Shown here: one piece after another, positions 17,757 through 30,348 of the stretch | Layout: every line of letters starts with the position of its first letter | Numbering within the stretch: position 1 is the first letter of the stretch | Made by a program: the position numbers and the translations under genes | The notes under the pieces: model-generated | The model's database searches: none | Seen by the model: the letters and a program-made list of their open reading frames with translations, nothing else | Told to the model about the DNA's origin: nothing | Virus record (IMG/VR): IMGVR_UViG_3300024273_001179 | Coordinates: 1-35,510 of that record | Source of the DNA: a virus | DNA length: 35,510 bases | Direction: 5' to 3' (one strand)

Positions 17757-18121
17757 ACTAAGTATGATTACATAGTAAGATAGCAATTTACATGAGCTGA
17801 TTAACAATCCTAATTGGCTCAATCAAAACTGTGACATTAGCCTGCTACTCTAATACTTAACTACCTATTGTCACACTTTTCTACAACCTGCGTTATTATT
17901 GCGATTGTAATATATATTGGGTGTTTGTATAGCCCCCCTCTTTTACCGTATCCGCCTTGTAACTAAACGCAATCCATTTCGCCCACCTCCCCTGTTCGTT
18001 TCACATTTCGCATTCAGCTTTTACCTAACCACTACCTACCCCATACAATCGATGCAACACTGTATTCTCTCACTATATTCACCTTTTATTCTATTCCATT
18101 TCATTTCATCTCATTCATCTT

Positions 18122-18151
18122 ACAAACCTAATACGACTACACATGGATAAT
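18122..18151 (+). promoter_or_regulatory. 30-nt early element, copy 1
   Basis: Matches ACAAAC-N2-AATACGA-N8-GGATAAT exactly, with N2 = CT and N8 = CTACACAT. This copy reads TAATACGACT, which resembles the start of a T7 promoter, but the other copies do not keep that extension. It lies just after the pyrimidine tract in the divergent region, far from any start codon, and is a plausible early promoter. Confidence 0.55.
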
Positions 18152-18177
18152 ATATATGTAATCAGTAACACAATACA

Positions 18178-18205
18178 ACTAGTCGTTGAGTAACATTTAG
18201 CTAGT
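18178..18205 (+). ncRNA. Conserved stem-loop, copy 1
   Basis: A 5-bp stem ACTAG/CTAGT encloses an 18-base loop containing GTTGAGTAACATT. The same 13-base loop core occurs at 18701-18727, flanked there by a different but still complementary stem (AGTGG/CCACT). Both copies are followed by ATAAA and, 9-11 bases later, GAATGAC. The compensating stem change suggests a structured RNA or protein-binding site. The function is unknown. Confidence 0.35.
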
Positions 18206-18261
18206 ATAAACAACACGAATGACACAGCACAACAGTTCTTTACATTATTCAATAAGTCAAT

Positions 18262-18289
18262 TTACATATGTAACTTTAATTACAATTGT
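18262..18289. promoter_or_regulatory. Palindromic operator-like sites
   Basis: A perfect 12-base palindrome TTACATATGTAA (18262-18273) is followed eight bases later by the palindrome ACAATTGT (18282-18289). They lie between the two early-element copies of the divergent region. Dimeric regulators bind such sites, and the phage has HTH proteins, but AT-rich sequence produces short palindromes by chance. Confidence 0.25.
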
Positions 18290-18354
18290 GAACACAGTGA
18301 GTCAGTGGTATATCTGCCAACTATTCTAAACGACTTAATAATTCATATACTTTT

Positions 18355-18384
18355 ACAAACTAAATACGATGTGTAATGGATAAT
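18355..18384 (+). promoter_or_regulatory. 30-nt early element, copy 2
   Basis: Full match to ACAAAC-N2-AATACGA-N8-GGATAAT (N8 = TGTGTAAT). It ends about 50 bases before the first gene of the early arm (18437), with an A/T-only leader between, fitting a promoter plus 5' leader. Confidence 0.6.
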
Positions 18385-18436
18385 ATAAATGTAACAACAA
18401 ACTAATAATAATAACTAATAATAAAATAAATAAATT

Positions 18437-18685
18437 ATGTCAAAATTAAATTCAGTAGAAGTACTTAAAACTAAACGATTCGTAATCAGAAAATCCTTAA
18501 TCGGTAAAAATGTAGTAATTACATTCTTAAATAAAAAACAAGAAACAGTTACTTATAATCATGATGAAGTATATAATACTCATAAAGAGAAATTCGAGTC
18601 AATGAATTGTTTCACTAAGTACAAGTCGTACACTTCAAGTAATAACATTCCATTATTCTGTAGAAACTTACAAATAACTGAGTAG
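18437..18685 (+). CDS. First early-arm protein, unknown function
   Basis: An 82-residue basic protein (MSKLNSVEVLKTKRFVIRKS) with a beta-type N-terminal half (GKNVVITFLNKKQETVTYNH) and a Ser/Asn-rich C-terminal end. No known domain is recognised. It lies behind element copy 2 and an A/T-rich leader, so it is probably among the earliest and strongest transcripts, where host-takeover proteins are commonly found. That role is inference from position. Confidence 0.6.
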   Translation: MSKLNSVEVLKTKRFVIRKSLIGKNVVITFLNKKQETVTYNHDEVYNTHKEKFESMNCFTKYKSYTSSNNIPLFCRNLQITE

Positions 18686-18700
18686 TATTATCAAGTCAAA

Positions 18701-18727
18701 AGTGGTAGTTGAGTAACATTCCCCACT
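18701..18727 (+). ncRNA. Conserved stem-loop, copy 2
   Basis: Stem AGTGG/CCACT around a 17-base loop with the same GTTGAGTAACATT core as copy 1 at 18178. It is followed by ATAAA and GAATGAC (18737-18743). It lies in the 144-base gap between two small genes, just before a tRNA-like structure. Confidence 0.35.
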
Positions 18728-18761
18728 ATAAAATATGAATGACCGAGTATGTGGAGTACAG

Positions 18762-18800
18762 TGTAGTAACGGTTTTCGTGAGTTCGATTCTCACACTACA
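18762..18800 (+). ncRNA. tRNA-like minihelix (acceptor and T-arm only)
   Basis: A perfect T-arm, GTGAG-TTCGATT-CTCAC (18778-18794), is directly followed by ACTACA (18795-18800), which pairs with TGTAGT at 18762-18767. Only ten bases (18768-18777) link the two stems, so no D-arm or anticodon arm fits in between. The T-loop TTCGATT is a standard tRNA sequence. It may be a tRNA remnant, a tRNA mimic or a processing signal. No CCA is encoded. Confidence 0.4.
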
Positions 18801-18829
18801 ACTAAATTAACAAATAAAAACTAAATAAT

Positions 18830-19045
18830 ATGTCGTATAGAAATTATAAAACGTGGGAACAAGCGTTCCAAGAAGTAGCAGACTCAAGAACTAAACATGA
18901 GTATGAAATGGCAATGACTAATCAACTATTTCCTCGTGAAGATGGTACACAGTGGGTGAACTGGATTGGACTAAGTAAAGAGTGTCGAGATGAAGTATAC
19001 TACTACTGCTACGAACACAATGTAAATACGACGTTAGTAGGATAA
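18830..19045 (+). CDS. Small early protein, unknown function
   Basis: A 71-residue protein rich in aromatic residues (YRNYKTWEQAFQEVADSRTK, then WVNWIGLSKECRDEVYYY). It appears to be a soluble helical domain. No motif is recognised. The last codons (NVNTTLVG and stop) lie inside early element copy 3, so the next transcription start probably overlaps the end of this gene. Confidence 0.6.
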   Translation: MSYRNYKTWEQAFQEVADSRTKHEYEMAMTNQLFPREDGTQWVNWIGLSKECRDEVYYYCYEHNVNTTLVG

Positions 19046-19046
19046 T
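19017..19046 (+). promoter_or_regulatory. 30-nt early element, copy 3
   Basis: AATACGA-N8-GGATAAT is exact (N8 = CGTTAGTA); the upstream hexamer is ACAATG rather than ACAAAC. It overlaps the end of the upstream gene and precedes the small gene at 19075. Confidence 0.55.
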
Positions 19047-19074
19047 ATAAATGTAAAACAAATAAAATAATAAT

Positions 19075-19221
19075 ATGTTTAAAGTAAAACAAAATGATAT
19101 ATTCGCTAAGAATATGAGTCAAGGTGAGCTGTACCAAGTGTACTTAAAGTTCAAAGCAAAAAAACAAATGGATAAATTCCTTAATAAAATAATCGCTAAA
19201 AACGGCACAACAAAATATTAG
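19075..19221 (+). CDS. 48-residue basic early peptide
   Basis: A short frame from ATG at 19075 to TAG at 19219-19221 encodes MFKVKQNDIFAKNMSQGELY and a Lys-rich helix that follows. It lies about 30 bases behind element copy 3 with an A/T-rich leader and fills a gap between genes. The ATG of the next micro-gene follows its stop with one intervening base. No homology can be judged. Confidence 0.5.
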   Translation: MFKVKQNDIFAKNMSQGELYQVYLKFKAKKQMDKFLNKIIAKNGTTKY

Positions 19222-19222
19222 A

Positions 19223-19303
19223 ATGGCAAAGAAATTAGAAAACAGAGTAGCAGAAATAATAATGTTAGCGGTAATAGCAATGGTAATAATAATGGGAGTA
19301 TGA
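19223..19303 (+). CDS. 26-residue single-span membrane peptide
   Basis: The frame encodes a charged start (MAKKLENRVAEI) followed by a hydrophobic stretch (IMLAVIAMVIIMGV), ending at TGA 19301-19303. It overlaps the start of the lipoprotein-like gene, suggesting translational coupling. Tiny membrane proteins are common in early phage regions, but so short an open frame could also arise by chance. Confidence 0.4.
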   Translation: MAKKLENRVAEIIMLAVIAMVIIMGV

Positions 19304-19536
19304 TGAAGTATCCAAAAATAGTAGGTTGGTCAGTAGTAATAGTACTCTGGTCAGTGACAAGTTGTGCTCTTAGTCAAGGAAATAATGAAGACATAGTAGA
19401 AGCTAGCAACACTGCAGAAGATATGATAGAGTGGATAGAGCATGATTTAGAAGCAGGTAATATAGACAGTAGTACAGCTGAGATGTACATAAGTAATTTA
19501 GATGGAGTAGTAATTAATTTAGGAATAGTAAGATGA
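19300..19536 (+). CDS. Putative small lipoprotein expressed early
   Basis: The 78-residue product has a basic start (MMKYPK), a hydrophobic segment (IVGWSVVIVLWSVTS) and a lipobox-like VTSC at residues 19-22, followed by an acidic mature part (NNEDIVEASNTAEDMIEWIE). After cleavage the Cys would be lipidated, giving an acidic envelope-anchored protein of about 57 residues. A lipoprotein in the early arm rather than with the lysis genes suggests superinfection exclusion, though this is inference. A second ATG at 19303 could also be the start. Confidence 0.55.
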   Translation: MMKYPKIVGWSVVIVLWSVTSCALSQGNNEDIVEASNTAEDMIEWIEHDLEAGNIDSSTAEMYISNLDGVVINLGIVR

Positions 19537-19772
19537 GAAATTATAGTATAACAAGAAAAGAAGGTGAGTGGTATGACGTGCGAGTGATCGATAGTTATGG
19601 TAAAGTGTATCAAAATTACTACGAAACCGCAAGTGAAGCAAATGACTGGGTATACTATATCTGGGAGAAAGAAGAGTGGTTCAACTCTGTTAACTCAGAA
19701 GAACTATTAAGTAATGCAATAGCAAACTGTAAGCGCATCGATGAGAAGTCTAACCGAAGAGCGATACTATAA
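19533..19772 (+). CDS. Small early protein, unknown function
   Basis: A 79-residue protein with a compact beta start (NYSITRKEGEWYDVRVIDSY) and an aromatic helical middle (ANDWVYYIWEKEEWFN). Its ATG overlaps the TGA of the lipoprotein-like gene (ATGA), so the two are coupled. The first half resembles small strand-turn-strand domains, but no family is recognised. Confidence 0.55.
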   Translation: MRNYSITRKEGEWYDVRVIDSYGKVYQNYYETASEANDWVYYIWEKEEWFNSVNSEELLSNAIANCKRIDEKSNRRAIL

Positions 19773-20013
19773 TGGGTGGTTGGATAACATTAGTACTAAT
19801 AACAATAATGCTTTTCAAGCATTTAATAGAAGAATAACAATTATGATGAGTAACGACGAACAAAATGTAGTAGGAGGTATTATAATAGGGTTTTTCTTTG
19901 GAATGGCGATTATGATGTTGGTAAGCGGCCAAAGAGAGCGAAGATTGATGGAAGAATATGGTATAGAGATAGAATATGAAGAACCTCACTACGAGGAGGT
20001 TTGGCACTACTAA
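19741..20013 (+). CDS. Small membrane protein, start uncertain
   Basis: The frame encodes 90 residues if begun at 19741, overlapping the previous gene by 32 bases. A start at 19843 or 19846 gives about 56 residues (MMSNDEQNVVGG). Either way it has one membrane segment (VVGGIIIGFFFGMAIMMLVSG) cut by charged residues (QRERRLMEE) and an acidic tail (YEEPHYEEVWHY). The short form avoids the overlap and is perhaps more likely. The function is unknown; an envelope role is possible. Confidence 0.5.
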   Translation: MRSLTEERYYNGWLDNISTNNNNAFQAFNRRITIMMSNDEQNVVGGIIIGFFFGMAIMMLVSGQRERRLMEEYGIEIEYEEPHYEEVWHY

Positions 20014-20047
20014 AGCAAACAAATAAAAATAACAAAACAAATAGAAT

Positions 20048-20212
20048 ATGAGAAAAAAGTGGATCACCGTATTAGATTACGAAACAAGTAGGGTATATCA
20101 ATACCAAGTAACAATAAATAAACATGCTGAAGAGTTTATAACCTTTAAAGGACATAGACTAAGTAACATCGAGTGGATGGAGCATGATAACAAGATACTA
20201 ATTACAAACTAA
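20048..20212 (+). CDS. 54-residue early protein, unknown function
   Basis: ATG at 20048 to TAA at 20210-20212, encoding MRKKWITVLDYETSRVYQYQ and then VTINKHAEEFITFKGHRLSN. The alternating hydrophobic pattern suggests a small beta sheet. The stop codon TAA falls inside early element copy 4. It has an A-rich leader typical of this arm. Confidence 0.55.
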   Translation: MRKKWITVLDYETSRVYQYQVTINKHAEEFITFKGHRLSNIEWMEHDNKILITN

Positions 20213-20233
20213 ATACGACAATAGACGGATAAT
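20204..20233 (+). promoter_or_regulatory. 30-nt early element, copy 4
   Basis: Full match to ACAAAC-N2-AATACGA-N8-GGATAAT (N8 = CAATAGAC). It overlaps the stop codon of the upstream gene and lies 22 bases before the ATG at 20256. Confidence 0.6.
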
Positions 20234-20255
20234 ATTAATACAAAAACAATATAAT

Positions 20256-20441
20256 ATGCAAACAATTAAACACCTTAAAAAAGACTATATCCAATTAGGC
20301 AATATAATCTACAGACCATACAAAGTATGTGAAGTACCAACCAGCTTCGGATGTATCGAGATGAACGAGAAAGAAGGAATCAGTGAATGGTTCAATTACA
20401 AAGGATATACTTATATCTATGAAAAAATGGCTAAGTCATGA
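20256..20441 (+). CDS. 61-residue early protein, unknown function
   Basis: The product (MQTIKHLKKDYIQLGNIIYR) is followed by a segment with two Cys (VCEVPTSFGCIEM) and an aromatic end (FNYKGYTYIYEKM). It looks like a small beta-rich domain. It lies directly behind element copy 4. The stop overlaps the next ATG (ATGA at 20438). Confidence 0.55.
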   Translation: MQTIKHLKKDYIQLGNIIYRPYKVCEVPTSFGCIEMNEKEGISEWFNYKGYTYIYEKMAKS

Positions 20442-20578
20442 AGAAAAAAAAATTAAACAGTAAGAATCCAAAATATGCAGACAAAAGCCTGTTAAAGGAT
20501 AAAGAAAAGAGTACAATAAAGAAATTAGAACGTACAACTCATAATGGAGTAAAAGTATACTCCGTATGGAGTAAGTAA
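20438..20578 (+). CDS. 46-residue Lys-rich early peptide
   Basis: ATG at 20438 overlaps the previous stop. The product MKKKKLNSKNPKYADKSLLK continues highly basic, with a small strand at the end (HNGVKVYSVWSK). The charge suggests nucleic-acid contact. It is the last gene before the structured non-coding gap at 20579-20773. Confidence 0.5.
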   Translation: MKKKKLNSKNPKYADKSLLKDKEKSTIKKLERTTHNGVKVYSVWSK

Positions 20579-20581
20579 TAT

Positions 20582-20653
20582 ACGAAGTGAGTGGTTTAAG
20601 CAAGATGAAGCAACCAGACATAGATGGTGAACCACACTTGCACACTTCGTTTT
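20582..20653 (+). ncRNA. Long structured hairpin, possible ncRNA or terminator
   Basis: An outer stem ACGAAGTG/CACTTCGT (20582-20589 with 20643-20650, 8 bp) encloses GTGGTT/AACCAC (20591-20596 with 20630-20635, 6 bp) and an apical ACCA/TGGT (20613-20616 with 20625-20628). It ends in TTTT (20650-20653). The stacked helices in an AT-rich gap are unlikely to be chance. It could be a small RNA, a processing element or an unusually long terminator. Confidence 0.4.
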
Positions 20654-20657
20654 AATA

Positions 20658-20750
20658 AACTAGATATAGGAGTAAGCCAGAGACATGCCAGATGGATGTT
20701 GGTCGCTGAAAGTATTACCGACGGGTATGAGGTTCGATTCCTCACTAGTT
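20658..20750 (+). ncRNA. tRNA-like structure with non-canonical insert
   Basis: A perfect T-arm, TGAGG-TTCGATT-CCTCA (20728-20744), contains the classical tRNA B-box GGTTCGATTCC. It is followed by CTAGTT (20745-20750), which pairs with AACTAG at 20658-20663. The 64 bases between do not form a recognisable D-arm or a 5-bp/7-base anticodon arm, and total length (93) is long even for a type II tRNA. An inner hairpin ACAT/ATGT can form near 20683-20699. It may be a divergent tRNA, a remnant or a tRNA mimic. Confidence 0.4.
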
Positions 20751-20773
20751 ACAAATAATAAAAATAAAAGAAA

Positions 20774-21022
20774 ATGAGTACAAAGTTAATAGACATAGAA
20801 GGTAAGACTTGGGATAAAGATGACAATAGCCGTATAAACCCTAGAACACTTAAGCAGCAAGTGTCACTAAATAGATTTTTTGGTGGACTAACGTTTGGTG
20901 GTAGAGCAATGCAAATAACTATCGGAGATGAGTATGTCCTACTAACACCGAAACAAGCGTGGGAATTAGGTAATGTATTAACTGCATCCTTTAATCCAGC
21001 AGAGATATTCCCAAGTGAATAA
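20774..21022 (+). CDS. Small early protein, unknown function
   Basis: An 82-residue soluble protein (MSTKLIDIEGKTWDKDDNSR) with a Gly-rich middle (FFGGLTFGGRAMQITIG) and a C-terminal helix (LTPKQAWELGNVLTASF). The pattern of strand pairs then a helix suggests a compact domain. No family is recognised. It follows the tRNA-like structure by 23 bases. Confidence 0.6.
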   Translation: MSTKLIDIEGKTWDKDDNSRINPRTLKQQVSLNRFFGGLTFGGRAMQITIGDEYVLLTPKQAWELGNVLTASFNPAEIFPSE

Positions 21023-21167
21023 ACTTACGAACAAACAGAAAAGATCGATCAAACGTAAGGTTAATTTAGATCTAGGTATTAACCCACCAAGAAGTGTTGT
21101 ATATAAATCTAAAAAGATTTACACTAGAAAAATAAAATACAAACCAAATACGAATGAAGATGGATAA
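21015..21167 (+). CDS. 50-residue very basic peptide, GTG start
   Basis: A frame starting GTG at 21015, within the last codons of the previous gene, encodes about 50 residues dominated by Lys and Arg (NKLTNKQKRSIKRKVNLDLG, then YKSKKIYTRKIKYK). It ends NTNEDG, with these codons and the stop lying in early element copy 5. The charge and the overlap with the previous stop support a real gene, but the GTG start is uncertain. Confidence 0.4.
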   Translation: MNKLTNKQKRSIKRKVNLDLGINPPRSVVYKSKKIYTRKIKYKPNTNEDG

Positions 21168-21168
21168 T
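21139..21168 (+). promoter_or_regulatory. 30-nt early element, copy 5
   Basis: Matches the element with ACAAAC, AATACGA and GGATAAT intact (N2 = CA, N8 = ATGAAGAT). It lies 31 bases before the ATG at 21200, with an A/T-rich leader between. Confidence 0.6.
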
Positions 21169-21199
21169 ATATACGAAACAAAAAATTTAATAAATAATT

Positions 21200-21559
21200 A
21201 TGAAAACAAAAAAGGAATTAGAACAATCAATTATAATGCTCGGAGAAAGAGTAGTGTCTAACACATCAGAGATGATTACCGTGCAAGCAGATCTTCAAGC
21301 AGCGGAAAAAGAATTAGCAGACATGAATAAGCCGGAATTAACACCGCTACAATTCGACAACTTGTATGAAGCCGTTGAAAGAGCCGTGGGAGAATATGAT
21401 TTCAGTAATGAAGACAATTATGATACCGAGTTTGGCATTAACTATGACGGTAAGGTACATTTAGAGAACTTCGACATCAGTGATACACAGGAATTGATTG
21501 AGGGTATTGTAGAGGAATTAACTAAGTTGTTCGCTGAAGCAGAGTGTACTGATGCGTAG
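21200..21559 (+). CDS. Acidic coiled-coil early protein
   Basis: A 119-residue acidic protein. The first ~45 residues form an amphipathic helix (ELEQSIIMLGERVVSNTSEM, then VQADLQAAEKELADM), likely a coiled coil. An Asp/Glu-rich section follows (DFSNEDNYDTEFG), then a C-terminal helix (LIEGIVEELTKLFAEAE). Strongly acidic small phage proteins often act as DNA mimics or inhibitors, but nothing specific is seen here. It is the first gene after element copy 5. Confidence 0.6.
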   Translation: MKTKKELEQSIIMLGERVVSNTSEMITVQADLQAAEKELADMNKPELTPLQFDNLYEAVERAVGEYDFSNEDNYDTEFGINYDGKVHLENFDISDTQELIEGIVEELTKLFAEAECTDA

Positions 21560-21662
21560 ATTAATATATGACATGTACTATAATAATGAGATAAGTGTTG
21601 AGATAGCAGAAAGACTTCTCGATAAGTTAAGTGCAATACGAGATAAAAAAAGAGGTTACTAA
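21552..21662 (+). CDS. 36-residue early peptide
   Basis: ATG at 21552 overlaps the end of the preceding gene, and its stop (TAA, 21660-21662) overlaps the ATG of the next (TAATG). The product is MRRLIYDMYYNNEISVEIAE followed by a short basic helix. The exact junctions at both ends favour a translated gene despite its size. Confidence 0.45.
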   Translation: MRRLIYDMYYNNEISVEIAERLLDKLSAIRDKKRGY

Positions 21663-21907
21663 TGAAACTAATAGATAAAATAAAACCAGAGGTGTTAAGA
21701 GCATTAGATAGACATGTGAAGTTAGAATACCCAACTAGTCATCGAATGATGATAGCTAGTCTTGAGGATGTTGAACGCTATAGAGATCTCACGATCGAGC
21801 AAGCAAGCCAGTTTATTACGTTCTTACCAATTGAATTTAAGCCACAGAATGATTTAGATATGTTCTACGGTGATCACTTATTACAAAACAAATACATAAT
21901 TAAATAA
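21662..21907 (+). CDS. Small early protein, unknown function
   Basis: An 81-residue protein with a helical N-terminus (DKIKPEVLRALDRHVKLEYP) and a second helix (LEDVERYRDLTIEQASQFIT). It joins its neighbours through TAATG-type overlaps at both ends, so the cluster is translationally coupled. No motif is recognised. Confidence 0.55.
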   Translation: MKLIDKIKPEVLRALDRHVKLEYPTSHRMMIASLEDVERYRDLTIEQASQFITFLPIEFKPQNDLDMFYGDHLLQNKYIIK

Positions 21908-22164
21908 TGACAGGAAAACAAGTAGAAGGTTATATAAAATATACCTTACAAATGAAGCCAAGACACAATGTAGAGGCTTTAGCTAGTGCCGTAACAGATA
22001 TGGCTGAGGAATTAGATCACGATGAGTGTGAGTTGTTATATCTATTATTAGAGAACAGACCGATCGATGCTATACACACGCACAGTTATGGTTTTCACAC
22101 TGCAAATGGCAGGCACATTATAGAACAAATTAAAGAAAAATATTACGAGTATGAAACAGAATGA
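21907..22164 (+). CDS. Small early protein, unknown function
   Basis: An 85-residue acidic protein, mostly helical (NVEALASAVTDMAEELDHDE, CELLYLLLENRPIDA), with a His cluster (IHTHSYGFHTANGRH). The His residues could bind metal, but the spacing does not match a family I know. It overlaps the next gene by 14 bases. Confidence 0.55.
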   Translation: MTGKQVEGYIKYTLQMKPRHNVEALASAVTDMAEELDHDECELLYLLLENRPIDAIHTHSYGFHTANGRHIIEQIKEKYYEYETE

Positions 22165-22444
22165 AAAATTAATAAAGAACATGAAGGAATTAGATAAGCA
22201 AAAGTTACCTAAATGGTTTACAGGCCAGTTATATGATGAAGGCGCAGAGGTTACCAACAGGTTTGGGGGTGACAGTTGCTACTTAAACAACGTTGAATTA
22301 AGTATGTACGACTTTATAATGGGTGCGACTCAAATGTATGAGATGGGTATATTTAACTCAGCTCAACATGGTGAAGACTTAAGAAAAGGACTTGATTGGT
22401 TCAGACAGAATAATGCTCAGGCATATATGATACTATTAGACTGA
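22151..22444 (+). CDS. Conserved small phage protein, unknown function
   Basis: A 97-residue protein with a basic helical start (MKQNEKLIKNMKELDKQK), then LPKWFTGQLYDEGAEVTN and LNNVELSMYDFIMGATQMYE. The GA-EVTN and ELSMYDFIMG blocks give the impression of a recurrent marine-phage protein, but I cannot assign a role. Its last base is the first base of the next gene. Confidence 0.55.
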   Translation: MKQNEKLIKNMKELDKQKLPKWFTGQLYDEGAEVTNRFGGDSCYLNNVELSMYDFIMGATQMYEMGIFNSAQHGEDLRKGLDWFRQNNAQAYMILLD

Positions 22445-22812
22445 TGAGTACTAGAGCACAAGTAAGATTTGCTACACGAGAAGATGGAGTATCGTTTAGT
22501 GAACACCCAGATAAAATACACGCACAATTCTACAAGCATCACGATGGTTATCCAGAAGGTTTGGGTTTAGATATTGCTGAGTCTTTAATAGATCGTGAAT
22601 CACTAAGATCTAGTTGGGAAATAGAGGAGCTTCAAACACAACATGGTGATCTAGATTTTATATACTACATATGGCAGAAGTATGATGATTCAACATGGAT
22701 AAGTATATTTGAAATGATGAACTACGGTGATCATGAAGGCGAATGTATCTTTGTAGGTACACCAGAGAAATTAATAAATAAATACAAACTAAATACGAAC
22801 GAAGATGGATAA
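22444..22812 (+). CDS. Conserved phage protein of the MSTRA-type, unknown function
   Basis: A 122-residue protein starting MSTRAQVRFATREDGVSFSE, with the block QFYKHHDGYPEGLGLDIAES near residues 28-47, then DLDFIYYIWQKYDDSTWISI and ECIFVGTPEKL. The HHDGYPEGLG block recurs in phage proteins of unknown function that look like small alpha/beta domains. The last codons (KLNTNEDG) lie within early element copy 6, and the stop overlaps the next gene by 8 bases. Confidence 0.6.
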   Translation: MSTRAQVRFATREDGVSFSEHPDKIHAQFYKHHDGYPEGLGLDIAESLIDRESLRSSWEIEELQTQHGDLDFIYYIWQKYDDSTWISIFEMMNYGDHEGECIFVGTPEKLINKYKLNTNEDG

Positions 22813-22813
22813 T
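22784..22813 (+). promoter_or_regulatory. 30-nt early element, copy 6
   Basis: Full match (N8 = ACGAAGAT). The element spans both the 3' end of the upstream gene and the ATG of the downstream gene at 22805. If it is a promoter, the transcript would be nearly leaderless for 22805 or would serve the ligase at 23146. Confidence 0.55.
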
Positions 22814-23143
22814 AAACGTGTATCAAATAAACAAATATTAGACAAGATAAATGACCTTAAAGTAGGTGAAGAAGGTCTTAACAAACTAGCCCTCAAGATC
22901 GTAAGTAGGATGGTTAAGCTTAAATCAATGGAAGATTGGTTCGAGCACGTTAGTAAGTCAGAGGCTAGTTGGTCTCAATCTTATGCTGAACTTGAATTAA
23001 CAGAAGAAGAAGCTGCGATTGGAGAAGCTGCAAAGCTAATGACACTGATGGAGTTATTCAAAGGTGAGGAAGAATATGAGAAGTGTGCTATCATCCGCAA
23101 TAGAATGGATGAAGTTAATAAAATATTAAGAAAAGGAGAATAA
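22805..23143 (+). CDS. Helical early protein with UVR-like C-terminus
   Basis: A 112-residue, mostly helical protein. The C-terminal part (LMELFKGEEEYEKCAIIRNR then MDEVNKIL) resembles the UvrB/UvrC (UVR) helical hairpin, in which acidic and basic residues alternate around an EYEKCA-type core. The N-terminal part shows no motif. It lies two bases before the ligase start, suggesting a role in DNA metabolism, though the UVR likeness is weak. Confidence 0.5.
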   Translation: MDNKRVSNKQILDKINDLKVGEEGLNKLALKIVSRMVKLKSMEDWFEHVSKSEASWSQSYAELELTEEEAAIGEAAKLMTLMELFKGEEEYEKCAIIRNRMDEVNKILRKGE

Positions 23144-23145
23144 TT

Positions 23146-23982
23146 ATGAGAAAAAAACCAATGCTAGCGTATCCCGTTAGTGCAAAACCAATAGATTACA
23201 GCAGTAAAATATCTATGCAACCAAAACTTGACGGTGTTCGTTGTACAATACAGTATGATGCTGGTGTTGTAACCGCGTATTCACGCACGGGTAAAGAGTG
23301 GAAAAACATAGAACACATCTTGTTTAATCTTAAACCGTGGTTTATACTTAACCCTCACATTATACTCGACGGTGAGTTATATAATCATGATCTAAGAGAC
23401 GATTTTGGCAAAATCATATCATTGGTCAGAAAACAAAAACCAACTGATCAGGACCGTCTAGATGCTGCTGAGTTAACACAATTTCATTGTTATGACATCA
23501 TAGATGAGACTATGACATTTGAAGAGCGTAATAAATTCATTGTACAAACTGTACCGCGTAACCACTGTGTACATCACGTGCCAACAAGAGCTGTTGCTAC
23601 TGAGTCTTTAGCTAAAATGATTCATAATCAAAACCTAGCTGTTGGCTACGAAGGCTCTATATTACGTACTAATGATAAGTACGCATGCAAACGTTCTCAT
23701 AACCTTAGAAAGTTTAAAGACTTTCACGATGCTGAAGCTGAAATAACCGGTTGGGTTGAAGGCAAAGGTAAACGTATCGGTACTATCGGCAAGTTTACAG
23801 CTGTCGACAGTGAAGGTAATGCGTTCGGCATGCCTGTTATGGATAAATTTGCGATCCTTAAAGCTAATTTCGAGACTATGAAAGACTGGGTTGGTGAAAC
23901 GGCTACATTTACATACTTCGAACGTACTAAAGCAAACAGCTATAGACACCCATTATTTAAAGCATTAAGAAATTATGAGTAA
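23146..23982 (+). CDS. ATP-dependent DNA ligase
   Basis: The 278-residue protein shows the nucleotidyltransferase motifs in order: motif I KLDGVR at residues 27-32, with Lys27 the AMP acceptor; RTGKEW near 47-52 (motif Ia); motif III LDGELYNHD at 74-82; motif IV GYEGSILR at 167-174; and motif V LRKFKDF at 187-193. A small OB-type domain follows. The size is like that of minimal phage ligases. It would seal nicks during replication and recombination. The stop overlaps the next micro-gene. Confidence 0.9.
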   Translation: MRKKPMLAYPVSAKPIDYSSKISMQPKLDGVRCTIQYDAGVVTAYSRTGKEWKNIEHILFNLKPWFILNPHIILDGELYNHDLRDDFGKIISLVRKQKPTDQDRLDAAELTQFHCYDIIDETMTFEERNKFIVQTVPRNHCVHHVPTRAVATESLAKMIHNQNLAVGYEGSILRTNDKYACKRSHNLRKFKDFHDAEAEITGWVEGKGKRIGTIGKFTAVDSEGNAFGMPVMDKFAILKANFETMKDWVGETATFTYFERTKANSYRHPLFKALRNYE

Positions 23983-24109
23983 TATAAGAACACAGTGTGA
24001 TATGGAAACGATTCCATACGTATGCGGGATATGTGACAAGCCTATGTCAGAAGAAGATCATGATTTTAGTGATATGTGTAGTGCTTGTTTAGAGAAATTA
24101 AAATTATGA
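23975..24109 (+). CDS. 44-residue zinc-ribbon-like micro-protein
   Basis: The frame starts within the ligase's last codons. Its product has two CxxC pairs, C17-x2-C20 (VCGICDKPM) and C35-x2-C38 (MCSACLEKL), spaced like a small treble-clef or zinc ribbon, with an acidic linker (SEEDHDFSD). Four well-placed cysteines argue for a real metal-binding protein. The stop overlaps the next ATG. Confidence 0.55.
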   Translation: MSNIRTQCDMETIPYVCGICDKPMSEEDHDFSDMCSACLEKLKL

Positions 24110-24210
24110 ATAGATATGAACAGGAAAAAGCTAACGATTTAAAACGTATAGCTGTAGCCTTGGAAAAATTAACAAAGTTATTAATGAAATTAATAAAAGA
24201 CAACGCATGA
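24106..24210 (+). CDS. 34-residue helical micro-protein
   Basis: MNRYEQEKANDLKRIAVALE continues as a single amphipathic helix (KLTKLLMKLIKDNA). It overlaps its neighbours on both sides by ATGA junctions, which suggests coupled translation. Confidence 0.4.
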   Translation: MNRYEQEKANDLKRIAVALEKLTKLLMKLIKDNA

Positions 24211-24284
24211 CAGTAGATCAATATGATAAAATAATAGAGTTATTAACAGTAATAGCTATACAATTAAAAAAAGTAAGAAAATGA
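24207..24284 (+). CDS. 25-residue helical micro-protein
   Basis: MTVDQYDKIIELLTVIAIQL followed by KKVRK. It is a short amphipathic helix similar in style to the previous micro-gene. ATGA overlaps at both ends are its main support. Confidence 0.35.
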   Translation: MTVDQYDKIIELLTVIAIQLKKVRK

Positions 24285-24415
24285 CAGAAGAATTAAGAGA
24301 TAGAATAAACCAATTTAATGAAATTAAATATGGTGCCGAAGATAACGAAACAAGAATTGTAATCGCGACACTGAAACCCGTGGAAACTGTGACAAAAGCC
24401 TACAAGGTATTATAG
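24281..24415 (+). CDS. 44-residue micro-protein
   Basis: MTEELRDRINQFNEIKYGAE continues with a strand-like part (TRIVIATLKPVETVT). It overlaps the preceding stop and ends ten bases before the HTH gene. The function is unknown. Confidence 0.4.
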   Translation: MTEELRDRINQFNEIKYGAEDNETRIVIATLKPVETVTKAYKVL

Positions 24416-24425
24416 TAATAGGCTA

Positions 24426-25046
24426 ATGTCACACGAAAGAAACCTAAATATACTTAATCGCAGACGAATAGTCTACAGAAGAGGTCCTATTGACGATGTA
24501 CCTACAGCTGAAACAAAGCATTATATGTTTTTCGAAGAAGGTACTTATCAGTGTTATACACTGTTCGCAAGTAAGGGCAAGATCACTACATACAAGAGTC
24601 TTAAATGGCATCTATTAGTATTGTGGTATCTTAATCCTGAAATGGACCCTGAAGAATTCATGGAAGTCGCTGAGATTATATCTATTAAAGAATATGGTTT
24701 CACTTCGTTCACAATACACATCGATCTACTAAGGAAGATGGTATACGAGGTTAACATGCTTGATCTTGATGAACCACCAAAAAACAAATTACGTAAAGTA
24801 ATATTCAAACAGTCATCCGGTCTAACCAAGGAAGAGAAGCTCAGCATCGTAGGAGAACTAATAGGTAGATCTAAGAAGTTTAGTAAGGTTGATATCTACG
24901 ATATCATGTTAGCATTACACCACGGAGGTTGGAAGATCACGATGCAAAGACTAGCTAATGGGTTAGATTGTACAGTGAGAACGGTACATAGAAATATGTG
25001 CGATGAGCTAAAGAAAGAAAAAGAATTATTAAATAGAGAATTGTAA
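24426..25046 (+). CDS. HTH DNA-binding protein, likely regulator
   Basis: A 206-residue protein. The C-terminal part has a helix-turn-helix: DIYDIMLALHHGGWKITMQR then LANGLDCTVRTVHRNM, with the recognition helix near TVRTVHRNM and a charged tail (KKEKELLNREL). The N-terminal ~130 residues hold aromatic helical segments (SLKWHLLVLWYLNP, HIDLLRKMVYEVNM) of unknown role. It is directly followed by element copy 7 and the sigma-like gene, so it may control early or middle transcription or replication initiation. The family is not named with certainty. Confidence 0.6.
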   Translation: MSHERNLNILNRRRIVYRRGPIDDVPTAETKHYMFFEEGTYQCYTLFASKGKITTYKSLKWHLLVLWYLNPEMDPEEFMEVAEIISIKEYGFTSFTIHIDLLRKMVYEVNMLDLDEPPKNKLRKVIFKQSSGLTKEEKLSIVGELIGRSKKFSKVDIYDIMLALHHGGWKITMQRLANGLDCTVRTVHRNMCDELKKEKELLNREL

Positions 25047-25049
25047 ATC

Positions 25050-25079
25050 ACAAACTAAATACGAATAAAGAAAGATAAT
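25050..25079 (+). promoter_or_regulatory. 30-nt early element, copy 7
   Basis: ACAAAC and AATACGA are intact; the last part is AGATAAT instead of GGATAAT (N8 = ATAAAGAA). It lies just downstream of the HTH gene and ends six bases before the sigma-like start codon at 25086. Confidence 0.55.
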
Positions 25080-25085
25080 ATACAT

Positions 25086-25844
25086 ATGAAACATTATAAT
25101 ATACAAAACTATATAAGGTATAAAGAAGATCTTAAATCAACTTTAAATAAATTACCAGATAAATTATGGGGTGAATACACAAGAGACGAATTAGTTATTA
25201 AGTTTATGCCTCTTGTAGAGAACCTAGCTAGAAAGTTTGCTACATCCCAACAAGCATCAGGTGTTATGGCAATAACAGATATGATTCAAGAAGGTCATAT
25301 CAATTTAATCAAAGCAGTTGATCGCATTGATTGGGTTAGAGTAAATGAATCTGAAGACCAAGAGAAGACTTTAAAAAGTTTCTTGGCTAAACGGATCAAA
25401 GGAGGAATACGAAGAGAGATAGACAAGAATAGAGGGCAAATGAGATTACCAGAACATGTAACGAATGATATTCGTAAGAACTTTGGTAAAGATAAAAAAG
25501 CAGTTGCATTATTCTTTAACTCTATATTCCTAAGTATAGATGCTGGTAGTAGAGACGATGATGATATGTTCTTACAAATAGAAGACACATCAGAACCTTA
25601 TAACCAAGTATTCTTAAACATGTACTTAACGAGTTTGTTAAAACAACATTTGACAGACAAAGAGTATCATGTACTAAGACTGAGCTATGGTCTTGATTGT
25701 GATAAGCAATCTGCAAAAGAGATAGCAAAGTTTTTAGAAATCGAGGGAACCGGCGCTTATGTTAGGGTATCACAGCTAAAAAAACAAGCTGTTGATAAGT
25801 TAATAGAAAATGTAGATCACTCACAAGTGTTTGACTATCTATAA
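25086..25844 (+). CDS. Sigma-70 family-like transcription factor
   Basis: A 252-residue protein with a region-2 pattern (LVENLARKFATSQQ, then DMIQEGHINLIKAVDRIDW, then FLAKRIKGGIRREIDKNRGQ) in which the acidic-aromatic core helix and the following -10 recognition helix are recognisable. A C-terminal region-4-like HTH follows (LTDKEYHVLRLSYGLDCDKQ, SAKEIAKFLEIEG, RVSQLKKQAVDKL). The phage probably encodes it to direct host RNA polymerase to middle or late promoters. Element copy 7 sits directly in front, raising the possibility of self-regulation. Confidence 0.75.
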   Translation: MKHYNIQNYIRYKEDLKSTLNKLPDKLWGEYTRDELVIKFMPLVENLARKFATSQQASGVMAITDMIQEGHINLIKAVDRIDWVRVNESEDQEKTLKSFLAKRIKGGIRREIDKNRGQMRLPEHVTNDIRKNFGKDKKAVALFFNSIFLSIDAGSRDDDDMFLQIEDTSEPYNQVFLNMYLTSLLKQHLTDKEYHVLRLSYGLDCDKQSAKEIAKFLEIEGTGAYVRVSQLKKQAVDKLIENVDHSQVFDYL

Positions 25845-25857
25845 GTTAAGCGAATAA

Positions 25858-25876
25858 AACAATTAAATTAAATTAA
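25858..25876 (+). promoter_or_regulatory. A/T-rich leader before ERF gene
   Basis: AACAATTAAATTAAATTAA is identical to the groEL leader on the other strand. It sits between the sigma-like gene and the ERF start at 25914 and is probably a translation-enhancing leader. Confidence 0.35.
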
Positions 25877-25913
25877 TAATGTGTGATTATAGATATACAC
25901 CAATATACCAATT

Positions 25914-26492
25914 ATGAAAGAACTAAACAAAAAATTAGCTATAGTTCAGACTAAGCTAAAAGCGAAAAAGTCCTCGTACAATTCGTTCGGTAAGTATTAC
26001 TTCCGTAAATCAGAGGACATCCTTGAGGCTATAAAGCCTTTCCTAATCGAACACGGCATTACAGTTACGATCAATGAAGAAATGATTGCTACTGATCCTG
26101 TTCCAACAATGCAAACAACAGCTACAATATCAGATGGAGTCGATGCTATACATGCCACGGCTCTAGTCGGTGTAGACCTTAATCAAAAAGGTATGCAGAC
26201 GGCTCAACAATTCGGCGCAGCCTCCACATACGGCAAGAAATATGCCTTGGGTAATCTTCTTTTAATCGATGACACGGAAGATGCTGACTCAGGCGCTAAA
26301 CCATCAGGTGCTATCAATAAGATTAAAGCAGCGGCTAAATCAGCAATATCAAAAGATCAGATGACTAAAGCATTAGCGTTTGTTGCATCAGGAGGATCTG
26401 TTGAAGCTATTAAGTCAAAGTATAAATTAACCGAAACACAAGAAAAACAACTACATGGAAATTTCAAAACAGGAGATACTACAAAGGCTTAA
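25914..26492 (+). CDS. ERF-family single-strand annealing protein
   Basis: The 192-residue product matches the ERF recombinase pattern: SYNSFGKYYFRKSEDILEAI near residues 20-40, then TATISDGVDAIHATALVGVD, QQFGAASTYGKKYALGNLLL and IDDTEDADS. ERF proteins anneal complementary single strands. The C-terminal ~60 residues form a separate helical domain. The next gene is an exonuclease overlapping by 38 bases, making the classic exonuclease-annealase pair. Confidence 0.85.
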   Translation: MKELNKKLAIVQTKLKAKKSSYNSFGKYYFRKSEDILEAIKPFLIEHGITVTINEEMIATDPVPTMQTTATISDGVDAIHATALVGVDLNQKGMQTAQQFGAASTYGKKYALGNLLLIDDTEDADSGAKPSGAINKIKAAAKSAISKDQMTKALAFVASGGSVEAIKSKYKLTETQEKQLHGNFKTGDTTKA

Positions 26493-27192
26493 GATAGATG
26501 AAGACTACTACGGGGATTTCGGTAACCAATTTTTATCCAACTCACACGTTGGCAAGTTACTGAATGACCCTTTAAACATCTTCCAACCAAGCAAGCCATC
26601 AGCCGCGTTTCTAATCGGTGGGTATTTTCATACCTGTATATTAGAACCAGATAAGCTAAAGAAATATAAGGTTGTTAAAGCAACATCTCGTAACTCTAAG
26701 GCTTATAAGGATGTAGCGGGTGGAGAATTATGTATGCTTGAAAAAGAAGTTGATATGGTCGAACTACTCAGAGAGAAGATGATGGATAATGATATATGCA
26801 GAGACCTTATACAAGAAGGTAATGTAGAATATGAAGTTCCAATGATCAAAGAGATGTTCGGTCAAACCTGGAAAGGTAAGGCTGATATAGTTAATCACGA
26901 TGAGAAACTAATTATCGATCTTAAAACCACCGCTGACATATCGAAGTTCCAATACTCAGCAAACAAATATAACTATGATTCACAAGCCTACATATACAGT
27001 AAGTTATTCGGATATGAATTCTTGTTCATAGTTATAGATAAAAACACACATCAAATAGGTATGTTTGATTGTTCATCGAAGTTCTACGAACGAGGTGAAG
27101 ATAAGGTACGTAAAGCAGCAGAAGCTTATGATCTGTTTTACAAGACCGAGGAATTTGATCCTAAACAATATTTCATAAGCAAAACCCTATAA
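26455..27192 (+). CDS. PD-(D/E)XK exonuclease (Cas4/RecB-like)
   Basis: A 245-residue nuclease. The core motif is GKADIVNHDEKLIIDLKTTA, with the metal-binding Asp in KADIV and the D-x-K of IDLKTT, preceded by a conserved-type helix near FLIGGYFHTCILEPDKL. YDSQAYIYSKLFGYEFLFIV follows, as in the QxxxY-containing RecB/Cas4 group. It would resect DNA ends to single strands for the adjacent ERF annealase. It overlaps the ERF gene by 38 bases, indicating translational coupling. Confidence 0.85.
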   Translation: MEISKQEILQRLKIDEDYYGDFGNQFLSNSHVGKLLNDPLNIFQPSKPSAAFLIGGYFHTCILEPDKLKKYKVVKATSRNSKAYKDVAGGELCMLEKEVDMVELLREKMMDNDICRDLIQEGNVEYEVPMIKEMFGQTWKGKADIVNHDEKLIIDLKTTADISKFQYSANKYNYDSQAYIYSKLFGYEFLFIVIDKNTHQIGMFDCSSKFYERGEDKVRKAAEAYDLFYKTEEFDPKQYFISKTL

Positions 27193-27202
27193 AAATAAAA
27201 TC

Positions 27203-27394
27203 ATGGGAAGAACTAAAATGAAGACCTGTACAATCTCAGGCAACAAGTATCCAGCAAATGCTGGCAATTTCTACAGTAATAAAAACAGTGAGGATGGTTT
27301 ACATCCATATCACAAGGACTTTGATAATTTCAGAAGAGTTACAAATGCAAGTGTAGAACAAATCAGAAATCTAGTTAATTTAATAAATTCATAA
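27203..27394 (+). CDS. Cys-depleted relative of an endonuclease VII-type N-domain
   Basis: The 63-residue protein reads KTCTISGNKYPANAGNFYSN then KNSEDGLHPYHKDF. This parallels the zinc-binding start of endonuclease VII-like proteins (see the gene at 32044: KKCGMCNTQK, then KTKDGLQHYCRRC). Here only the first Cys remains; the others are Ser, His and Phe or Asp. The metal site is therefore probably lost and the fold reused. It lies between the exonuclease and SSB-like genes. Confidence 0.45.
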   Translation: MGRTKMKTCTISGNKYPANAGNFYSNKNSEDGLHPYHKDFDNFRRVTNASVEQIRNLVNLINS

Positions 27395-27395
27395 T

Positions 27396-27701
27396 ATGGC
27401 AAGTATAATTAAAGCAAGCATTAATCTAAATGCAGTTCCAAAGGAAAAAATATTCGTAGGTAAGAAAGGTAAATACCTTCCGATCACGATAACTATCAAT
27501 GACGAAGTCGATCAATTCGGTAATCAAGGTCCAATGGTTGTAGAGCAATCAAAGGAAGAGAGAGACGCTAAAGACCCGAAGACTTACTTAGGTAATGTCA
27601 AAGTGGTATGGACAAACGGTACAAACGTTGCTCCAGCTCCAAGAGACGGTGAACCAGCTCAAGCTAACACAGCTCCACAAGCGGACGACTTACCATTCTA
27701 A
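27396..27701 (+). CDS. Putative single-stranded DNA-binding protein
   Basis: A 101-residue protein starting MASIIKASINLNAVPKEKIF, with a beta-rich body (KGKYLPITITINDEVDQFGN, YLGNVKVVWTNG) followed by a Pro/Ala-rich linker and the acidic tip ADDLPF. The acidic linker ending in D-D-x-P-F is the hallmark of bacterial-type SSB C-termini, which recruit partner proteins. It sits directly before the primase-helicase gene, which fits. It lacks a full canonical OB-fold sequence, so it may be a minimal phage SSB. Confidence 0.7.
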   Translation: MASIIKASINLNAVPKEKIFVGKKGKYLPITITINDEVDQFGNQGPMVVEQSKEERDAKDPKTYLGNVKVVWTNGTNVAPAPRDGEPAQANTAPQADDLPF

Positions 27702-27702
27702 T

Positions 27703-29415
27703 ATGAGTAAAGAAGAGATCAATGGATTTTTGGTTGACAAGTTCAATCAACATGGCCTAAAAGACGGTGCTACTCAGGGGATTTGTCCCCTGTGTTCGCC
27801 TGATAGGAAACCTAAAAATACTAAAGCACAATGTGCTTCGTATGATTGGGAACGTGGTCTCGGTACCTGTCACAATTGCGATACAACATTTCAACTACAT
27901 ACTTATCAGCGTAAGGGCGCAAGTGAGAAAGTCTATACAAGACCAATTACTCCTGAGCAGTTCAACGATGTAAGTACCAATGTAGAGACGTGGTTCGGTA
28001 CAAGAGCAATTTCAAAGCAAACACTTCAGGATCTTCAAGTAACCGAAGGTCCTGAATTTATGCCTCAGACAGGGAAGACTGAGAATGCTATTAAGTTTAA
28101 TTATTTCATGGGTGATCAGTTGATCAACATTAAATATAGAGACGGTAGAAAGAATTTCAAACTATTCAAGGGTGCTGAAAAAGTATTCTACAATATTAAC
28201 AGTGTTGTAGGTTATGATTGGTGTGTCATTGTTGAGGGTGAAATGGACGTACTAGCTTTACACGAAGCTGGTATTAAGAATGCAATATCAGTACCTAACG
28301 GTGCTACTTTAAATTCAAACAACTTAGACTACCTAGATAATTGTATTGATTATTTAGATGATAAGACTAAGATAATATTAGCGGTTGATGCTGACGAAGC
28401 TGGTCAAGCCTTGAGACAAGAGTTTATACGTAGACTCGGTGCTGAGGTTTGTTATCTAGTAGATTTTAACGGACAGAAAGATGCTAATGATTATTTAATA
28501 GAGAATGGTGCTGCTGAGCTGAGAAATGCTATACACACCTCGTCTCAAGTGCCTTTAGAAGGCGTAACCACATTATACGATATACATGATGAAGTCAAAG
28601 AATTTGTTACAAATGGTTTCAAGCCTGGATTCCAAATTGGGCTTAAGAACTTCGATAATATTTTTTCTACTTATACTGGGCAATTTATTACTGTTACTGG
28701 GATCCCTAGTTCTGGTAAGTCTGATTTTGTTGATCAAATGGTTGTTGGTTACAATAATCAGTATGGTTGGAAAACTGCGTTTGCTAGTCCAGAGAATCAA
28801 CCAACGTATCTCCACGCTCATAAGTTAATGCGTAAGACTTGGCAAGATATGCCAACTCAAGCAGATATTGGTAGTGATAAGTGGTTAGAAGTTACGCAGA
28901 CGGTTAATGACAATTACTTCTTCATAGATATGGAGAGATATACATTAGAGTCTGTGTTGAAGAAAGGTGCTGAGCTTGTAAAGCGAAAAGGTATCAAATG
29001 CTTAGTGATTGACCCTTACAACAAGGTTAGAGACACTAACGCAAAATCAGATGATGTAAATCGTTACACGATGGATTACTTAGCTAAGATTGAAACCTTT
29101 GCTAAGAAATATGATGTGTTAGTGTTTATAGTAGCTCATCCAACTAAAATGTATAAAGGACAAGATGGTAAGATTGAAGAACCTACTATGTATAACATCA
29201 AAGGTGGTGGAGAATGGTACGATGCAAGTTATCATGGTTTACTGGTACACAGAGATTACGAAGCTAAGACCACTAAGGTTAAGGTACTCAAGGTTAAGTT
29301 CCAAAACCTCGGTGAAAACGGTGCTGAGGCTCACTTTACTTGGGAACCTAGATCTGGTAGTTTCATACCAAACGAGCCCGCGTCTGTAGAGGTTGACGGC
29401 TTGCCTTGGGAGTAA
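27703..29415 (+). CDS. Primase-helicase (T7 gp4/Twinkle type)
   Basis: I take the ATG at 27703, directly after the SSB gene, giving 570 residues; a longer frame from 27595 would overlap that gene. Zinc-binding cysteines lie at 28/31 and 56/59. A TOPRIM primase fold follows, with VEGEMD at 177-182 and DADEAG at 229-234. The RecA-fold DnaB-type helicase has Walker A GIPSSGKS at 333-340 and Walker B VIDPY at 435-439, then FIVAHPTKM. It unwinds the fork and makes RNA primers. The stop overlaps the next ATG (TAATG). Confidence 0.92.
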   Translation: MSKEEINGFLVDKFNQHGLKDGATQGICPLCSPDRKPKNTKAQCASYDWERGLGTCHNCDTTFQLHTYQRKGASEKVYTRPITPEQFNDVSTNVETWFGTRAISKQTLQDLQVTEGPEFMPQTGKTENAIKFNYFMGDQLINIKYRDGRKNFKLFKGAEKVFYNINSVVGYDWCVIVEGEMDVLALHEAGIKNAISVPNGATLNSNNLDYLDNCIDYLDDKTKIILAVDADEAGQALRQEFIRRLGAEVCYLVDFNGQKDANDYLIENGAAELRNAIHTSSQVPLEGVTTLYDIHDEVKEFVTNGFKPGFQIGLKNFDNIFSTYTGQFITVTGIPSSGKSDFVDQMVVGYNNQYGWKTAFASPENQPTYLHAHKLMRKTWQDMPTQADIGSDKWLEVTQTVNDNYFFIDMERYTLESVLKKGAELVKRKGIKCLVIDPYNKVRDTNAKSDDVNRYTMDYLAKIETFAKKYDVLVFIVAHPTKMYKGQDGKIEEPTMYNIKGGGEWYDASYHGLLVHRDYEAKTTKVKVLKVKFQNLGENGAEAHFTWEPRSGSFIPNEPASVEVDGLPWE

Positions 29416-29684
29416 TGGCATTCTTTAAAAAGTTTTCAGGTAAATCACCTGGGTTTCACGTCTACACTAATGCCGATATGAAAAGAGTTCAGTGGTGTTT
29501 AGATCGCAAGATTAAAATTGCGGTTATACCCAACGGAGTAAATTGGCAAGTTGAGATAACTATAGGCAAGTCTGTTAACCTAGATTCTACTATATACAGA
29601 GCGAAAGAAGCTTATGTAAAAATGTACGAATACTACAAATACTATTATGACAAACACAATCTAAATACGAACGCTAAAGGATAA
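29415..29684 (+). CDS. Small protein downstream of primase-helicase
   Basis: An 89-residue protein starting MAFFKKFSGKSPGFHVYTNA at the TAATG junction with the helicase; a TTG three codons upstream is less likely. It has strand pairs (IKIAVIPNGVNWQVEITIG) and a Tyr-rich helix (YVKMYEYYKYYYDK). The last codons, HNLNTNAKG and stop, lie in early element copy 8. The function is unknown; a replication accessory role is possible from context. Confidence 0.55.
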   Translation: MAFFKKFSGKSPGFHVYTNADMKRVQWCLDRKIKIAVIPNGVNWQVEITIGKSVNLDSTIYRAKEAYVKMYEYYKYYYDKHNLNTNAKG

Positions 29685-29685
29685 T
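29656..29685 (+). promoter_or_regulatory. 30-nt early element, copy 8
   Basis: AATACGA-N8-GGATAAT is intact (N8 = ACGCTAAA), with ACAATC in place of ACAAAC. It overlaps the upstream gene's last codons and ends six bases before the start of the TS-like gene at 29692. Confidence 0.55.
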
Positions 29686-29691
29686 AATAAC

Positions 29692-30348
29692 ATGATAAAA
29701 ACAATAAACAATAAAGTCTTTAGGAATGCTAATGAAGCCTACGAATATCTACACGATCAGATTATTCAAAACGGTAGATCATTCGGAGATACTAAAGCTC
29801 TATTCAACGTAGGATTCTATATGACAGATCCTAAGGATAGGAAAATAATAAACAAAGAACGAAAGTGGAGTGAGGAGTATGCTCTAGCTGAATGGGAATG
29901 GTATTTAACTGGTGATCCAAGCACTAGGGCTCTAGGTGATATATATGGCAAGGTGCCCGAGATATGGAAGCGCATGGAAGATCCTAGTGGTAAAGTTAAT
30001 TCAAATTATGGTTATCAATGGGAGCGCAATGCTCAGTTAGATATGGTTGTTGAAATGCTAAGGCATAACAAAGATACTAGACAAGCTTGTATATCTATAT
30101 ATGACGGTAAGGAGATTAGCGACTATGCATTTGACACACCATGTACTTATGCCGTACAATTTACAATCGTAGATAACAGGCTTGATATGTGCGTTACGAT
30201 GCGATCTAACGATCTCTGGTACGGTTTTTGTAATGATCAATATCAATTCTCTAGACTGCAAGAGATGGTCTCTAAACGGCTCGAGATTGAGACTGGCGTG
30301 TACTACCATTTTGCGCACAATATGCACTTATACAATAATAAAATATGA
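29692..30348 (+). CDS. Thymidylate synthase-like enzyme, possibly dCMP hydroxymethylase
   Basis: The 218-residue protein belongs to the ThyA superfamily. The catalytic Cys is at 151 in DTPCTYAVQF. The phosphate/substrate region is MRSNDLWYGFCNDQYQF (170-186), and the C-terminal HFAHNMHLY (206-214) matches the conserved H-xx-Y. It lacks the usual N-terminal length of bacterial ThyA (about 264 residues). At the position that is Asn177 in E. coli ThyA, my alignment places Asp182; Asp there is typical of dCMP hydroxymethylases such as that of T4. It would make dTMP or hydroxymethyl-dCMP. The ATG of the next gene overlaps its stop. Confidence 0.75.
   Translation: MIKTINNKVFRNANEAYEYLHDQIIQNGRSFGDTKALFNVGFYMTDPKDRKIINKERKWSEEYALAEWEWYLTGDPSTRALGDIYGKVPEIWKRMEDPSGKVNSNYGYQWERNAQLDMVVEMLRHNKDTRQACISIYDGKEISDYAFDTPCTYAVQFTIVDNRLDMCVTMRSNDLWYGFCNDQYQFSRLQEMVSKRLEIETGVYYHFAHNMHLYNNKI

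Follow-up and report, generated by a model that had tools for sequence, protein, structure and literature searches.

A candidate phage promoter class and its putative sigma factor in the early arm of a Bacteroidota podovirus-like phage

The viral record analyzed here, called the window over its whole length of 35,510 nucleotides (35.5 kb), belongs to a podovirus-like phage. Its late arm, on the minus strand, encodes portal, terminase, GroES and GroEL, and its early arm, on the plus strand, encodes a DNA ligase, a sigma factor, an ERF annealing protein, an exonuclease and a primase-helicase, along with thymidylate synthase, MazG and ribonucleotide reductase. The early arm also carries eight copies of an element with fixed internal spacing, which raises the question of what the element does and what reads it. 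From comparison of sequences, we consider it likely that the copies are promoters for the host RNA polymerase core bound to the phage sigma factor, probably aided by a helix-turn-helix protein encoded upstream of the sigma gene (Table 1).

Anatomy of the element and its predicted start

All eight copies reported in the initial annotation were found at their positions on the plus strand of the early arm. No variation was seen across the eight in AATACGA, in GATAAT or in the 8-nt length of the gap between them, and a search of the window with AATACGA-N8-RGATAAT returned 8 matches, every one on the plus strand and confined to 18130-29685, against none in 100 dinucleotide-preserving shuffles. The late arm is free of the element, as claimed; the top reverse-strand score in the window is -8.8, whereas forward copies score >16.

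Other parts of the description needed adjustment. The ACAAAC said to open each copy is exact in six of the eight, with ACAATG at 19017 and ACAATC at 29656, and the GG of GGATAAT is present in the other copies but not at 25050, where A precedes GATAAT. The core of the described 30-nt element is real, but the conserved element is longer, with a fixed purine 7 nt past GATAAT. Likewise, most copies do lie near a gene start, but the one at 18122 has no clear ORF ahead of the next copy and the one at 22784 overlaps the beginning of the next ORF.

Table 1. Predicted promoter copies (-38 to +1) and the two associated regulatory genes in the window
Feature	Coordinates	Strand	Details
Promoter copy 1	18120..18158	+	+1 = G18158; exact core; +1 by register of aligned copies
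Promoter copy 2	18353..18391	+	+1 = G18391; ATG of ORF 18437-18685 46 nt on
Promoter copy 3	19015..19053	+	+1 = G19053; overlaps 3' end of ORF 18830-19045
Promoter copy 4	20202..20240	+	+1 = A20240; ATG of ORF 20256-20441 16 nt on
Promoter copy 5	21137..21175	+	+1 = G21175; ATG of ORF 21200-21559 25 nt on
Promoter copy 6	22782..22820	+	+1 = G22820, within ORF 22805-23143
Promoter copy 7	25048..25086	+	+1 = A25086 = A of sigma gene ATG
Promoter copy 8	29654..29692	+	+1 = A29692 = A of thymidylate synthase gene ATG
Partner gene, 206 aa, C-terminal helix-turn-helix	24426..25046	+	Upstream of sigma
Phage sigma factor, sigma-70 family, regions 2, 3.0, 4	25086..25844	+	Proposed specificity factor

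The consensus over 144 copies is TTACAAACTAAATACGA-N8-NGATAATA. We aligned 725 distinct copies, drawn from 104 genomes with a matrix that ends before the +1 base, and obtained TTACAAACTAAATACGA-N8-(N)GATAATA followed by a purine exactly 7 nt after GATAAT. The 8-nt gap is held in 829 of 833 copies. The purine is present in 620 of the 629 aligned copies that do not have an ATG at that position, and in an earlier set it followed the last T of GATAAT at the same distance in all 108 non-ATG copies. It is preceded by a pyrimidine in 79% of the 725 copies, and flanking positions have no such bias. This pyrimidine-purine step is the signature of a transcription start, with GATAAT as the predicted -10 element and the purine as the predicted +1. 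The signature fixes the numbering: GATAAT spans -12 to -7, GATAATA -12 to -6, a loosely conserved base sits at -13 and the upstream block TTACAAACTAAATACGA extends from -38 to -22. The element thus has a -10 about 7 nt ahead of a purine +1 and a second conserved element near -35 at a fixed distance, as in sigma-70-class promoters.

In 96 of the 725 copies (~13%), an ATG starts exactly on the +1 base, and the mRNAs from those copies would be leaderless. The same is predicted for the sigma and thymidylate synthase genes of the window, and the sigma gene would then be autogenous. Leaderless starts are unusual for the presumed hosts, since Flavobacterium johnsoniae mRNAs are mostly leadered, 87% of them by over 10 nt (PMC6847099). 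The nearest ATG lies upstream of +1 in a few copies (at -6 in 10 of 725). Such copies, of which 22784 is an example, may have their targets farther downstream; because its +1 falls inside an ORF, copy 6 may serve the DNA ligase gene (23146-23982), and its arrangement recurs in G010 and G027. An ATG at -2 was seen in 231 of 725 copies, often as ATGTAA, placing the start base inside a start-stop pair.

Could the element be something other than a core promoter, such as the binding site of a regulator (an operator or activator box) or a signal at the RNA level? The 17-bp upstream block exceeds the usual length of a sigma contact and the sigma gene has a helix-turn-helix gene as its neighbor, as might suit such a site, but the rigid phasing of the block to a -10-like sequence and a +1 purine, with an ATG on that very base in the fraction of copies given above, is promoter anatomy. 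A ribosome-binding role is argued against by the distance to the gene start, which is otherwise free. We therefore regard a regulator site or RNA signal as very unlikely.

The sigma gene and its neighbor in related phages

The element recurs, strand-biased and with the same rigid gap, in more than 100 related Bacteroidota podoviruses of ~60-70 kb, amounting to hundreds of copies. The exact core turned up in numerous IMG/VR contigs, about 60-70 kb in length, nearly always on one strand, and reversed-pattern controls in whole records gave near zero. A position-matrix scan of 25 related genomes gave 211 copies on the forward strand, no more than one per genome on the reverse strand and none in reversed sequence. 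One high-scoring copy on the opposite strand occurs near the arm divergence point in each of G013, G026, G034, G029 and G023; in G013 and G029 it adjoins the first early copies and may serve a divergent gene. Comparison of G012, G013, G020, G024 and G027 with 32560-34434 of the window revealed that its ribonucleotide reductase is missing in some relatives, which carry in its stead a similar-sized protein that may be a different reductase.

The product of the sigma gene matches TIGR02937 at 55.9 bits, above the curated cut-off of 42.9, and possesses both regions 2 and 4; it also matches phrog_351 (6.8e-20). FliA is its best solved-structure match and FliA_WhiG is among its top NCBIfam matches, but assignment to FliA/WhiG (sigma28) was rejected, as the score is 48.2 bits against a curated cut-off of 189.6. 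Neither the sigma nor the helix-turn-helix protein has a match among 50,697 public phage records, and a fold search with the latter gave no significant match. The sigma gene of G012 (L221:17764-18650) is frameshifted in the assembly, probably by sequencing errors.

Both genes are present in the window and in 15 of the 15 motif-bearing relatives examined first, and G023, a fragment with four copies, is a record without either. To guard against circularity, 95 loci were fetched by the sigma protein alone, each with at least 8 kb upstream. Three or more copies of the motif occur in 93 of them, the exceptions being L321, with zero copies, and L326, with a diverged form; in 89, the 1.5 kb upstream of sigma contain a helix-turn-helix gene. 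Sigma predicts the motif, and the pointer in the initial annotation to the sigma-like protein is strongly supported. Sigma is not the sole possible partner, because the motif genomes share many other genes too.

By terminase, the nearest annotated phages are MW202828.1 (62%) and the Flavobacterium elemoviruses (45%). MW202828.1, a related complete genome, lacks sigma, the helix-turn-helix gene and the motif alike. Its early arm (L010, 257-11170) carries about 14 copies of a palindrome, GTGTCGTTAACGACAC, ahead of early genes, which apparently represent another regulatory system at the same location.

Taken together, the +1 purine, rigid gap, strand bias and co-occurrence with sigma strongly support the idea, put forward in the initial annotation, of a candidate new phage promoter family. 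In the mechanism we propose, the phage sigma would redirect the host RNA polymerase core to the early-arm elements, probably assisted there by the helix-turn-helix protein. The copy ahead of the sigma gene would create a positive feedback loop, which would commit RNA polymerase to the genes for replication and nucleotide metabolism.

Host sigma factors and phage RNA polymerases as alternative, less likely readers

The first genes to be expressed need something already present at infection, and copies of the element are present right where the early arm begins. Both points would suit host RNA polymerase as the reader, guided by the primary or some other sigma of the host, with the phage sigma serving other (late) promoters. 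In addition, neither the early arm nor the region ahead of the sigma operon shows a conspicuous TTG/TAnnTTTG promoter: the count before helix-turn-helix/sigma genes is not above control (24 TAnnTTTG versus 31 reversed), and no recognizable host promoter was found in the inter-arm gap at 17823-18120 of the window. This gap has a plus strand rich in T and C. Against this reading, the element is unlike the Bacteroidota consensus, TTTG / TAnnTTTG (PMC7366714, PMC6847099), a mismatch that the annotation had rightly pointed out; nearly every copy has GATAATA at -12 to -6 instead of TAnnTTTG at -12 to -5. The motif is almost missing from 300 genomes of one host family, which suggests that it is not used by any host sigma, and its presence tracks the phage sigma gene. 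On balance, we find it unlikely that a host sigma reads the element.

Lone full copies, without a phage sigma, were seen in four Flavobacteriales MAG contigs (L470, L471, L472 and L468, of G042, G043, G044 and G040, respectively). Examples stand ahead of a TerB-like gene and parAB, ahead of the gene for a small secreted protein, and directly behind a tRNA gene at the end of a contig; such copies could mark infection-triggered genes or phage remnants.

Host promoters are not enriched in the late arm. A separate sequence, TTATTATATTATATTATG, precedes late structural genes, at 2250 in the window (the start of gene 1123-2250, minus strand) and at some 25 late genes of relatives. It often stands directly behind a terminator-like hairpin and could be a late promoter or a translation signal.

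A phage-encoded polymerase is the other kind of reader to be weighed, and the initial annotation had noted a resemblance to T7-type promoters. In its favor, the element partly resembles TAATACGACTCACTATAGGG, an RNA polymerase is packaged by related crassviruses (PMC10172136), and a weak match to the crass muzzle was seen in one large protein of a relative. A T7-like single-subunit or crAss-type virion polymerase would be predicted to start at the GG of GGATAAT, but the fixed purine and the pyrimidine-purine step sit 7 nt after GATAAT. The resemblance fails at the other end as well: N8 is unconserved, whereas T7-type promoters have a conserved -9 to -1 and a GG(G) start. The annotation had also left room for any phage RNA polymerase encoded outside the window. 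Neither the window nor the scanned large proteins of relatives yielded a single-subunit or two-barrel enzyme, and no RNA polymerase family was matched by window proteins or scanned large virion proteins. No support emerged for a T7-like, N4-like or crass-type polymerase, and we hold this reading to be highly improbable.

The giant probable virion proteins of the relatives (2450-3859 aa) contain a HAD/polynucleotide-kinase-like domain and a peptidase-like HExxH. No polymerase signature was found in these giant late proteins, and they share no DxDxD motif; a profile of six of them matched no solved RNA polymerase. A whole-record scan for PF00940 returned nothing, with positive controls likewise silent. 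Because of the weak muzzle match, the phage group may be near the crassviruses.

Proposed base recognition and relation to known systems

If the phage sigma reads the element, which residues contact which bases? In the aligned protein, G106 and R109 correspond in position to Q437 and T440 in E. coli sigma70, two residues that read -12, and both are invariant in 134 phage sigmas. The base at -12 of the motif is an invariant G, where sigma70 promoters have T. We infer that region 2.4 would read GATAAT, with R109 facing the G at -12, and that the upstream block would be read by region 4.2, the helix-turn-helix protein or both.

Covariation bears on the second point. Before tree control, the best columns against the upstream block include residues in the recognition helix that an AlphaFold model of moderate confidence predicts for region 4.2. 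In tree-based scans, which covered 284 (for -29) and 300 (for -23) of the 337 columns, residue 231 ranked first of 284 for -29 and residue 230 second of 300 for -23; -30 and -26 gave no match in region 4.2. A sister-pair test, which has little power, was mostly negative. The covariation of region 4.2 with the upstream block is suggestive. It is conceivable, though we think it doubtful, that two phage proteins read the promoter together, with region 4.2 on -30 to -22 and the helix-turn-helix partner at the canonical -35 (TTACAAAC). The contact of region 4.2 would then lie, equally tentatively, closer to the -10 by some 7 bp than is the case for known sigma factors. If two such readers are at work, the sigma-less Flavobacteriales copies would mark genes switched on only during infection.

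Other phages also pair a sigma factor of their own with dedicated promoters, as in the SPO1 regulons of gp28 (middle) and gp33/34 (late) and the late regulon of T4 gp55. There too, a phage sigma steers host RNA polymerase to phage promoters with distinctive -10 and -35 elements, but here the promoter sequence is another one, has a 17-bp upstream block and belongs to Bacteroidota phages, the copies begin at the start of the early arm, and leaderless starts are frequent. T4 middle promoters combine a MotA box at about -30 with a sigma70 -10. They resemble the element in having an upstream box near -30 at a fixed distance from the -10, and in a dedicated candidate gene for a DNA-binding partner, whereas here the sigma is supplied by the phage itself, neither AsiA nor MotA has an identified homologue and DNA binding by the partner is putative. 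FliA/WhiG (sigma28) promoters, TAAAGTTT-N11-GCCGATAA, share GATAA at the -10, but the element has no GCC before GATAA and its conserved block reaches -22. The likeness to the Bacteroidota sigmaABfr promoter is confined to being AT-rich and two-part; TTTG / TAnnTTTG is unmatched and host mRNAs mostly have leaders.

A literature search confined to open-access papers found no description of the promoter, and the class appears to be undescribed so far. Phage sigma regulons as such are known; the novelty lies in the leaderless starts, the partner gene and an upstream block that is both long and rigid.

The proposed pairing of sigma and promoter raises the question of how sigma is made before any sigma exists. 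If all early promoters need sigma, the first molecules must be made or brought by something; leaky host transcription, weak host reading of the element and packaged sigma are possible sources. The analysis offers a specific reading of how transcription is controlled in a large, uncultivated group of marine Bacteroidota phages, with hundreds of transcription-start predictions at single-base resolution. Early genes in contigs of this kind could be annotated with the help of the promoter, and the sigma factor and promoter are a candidate orthogonal pair for Bacteroidota.
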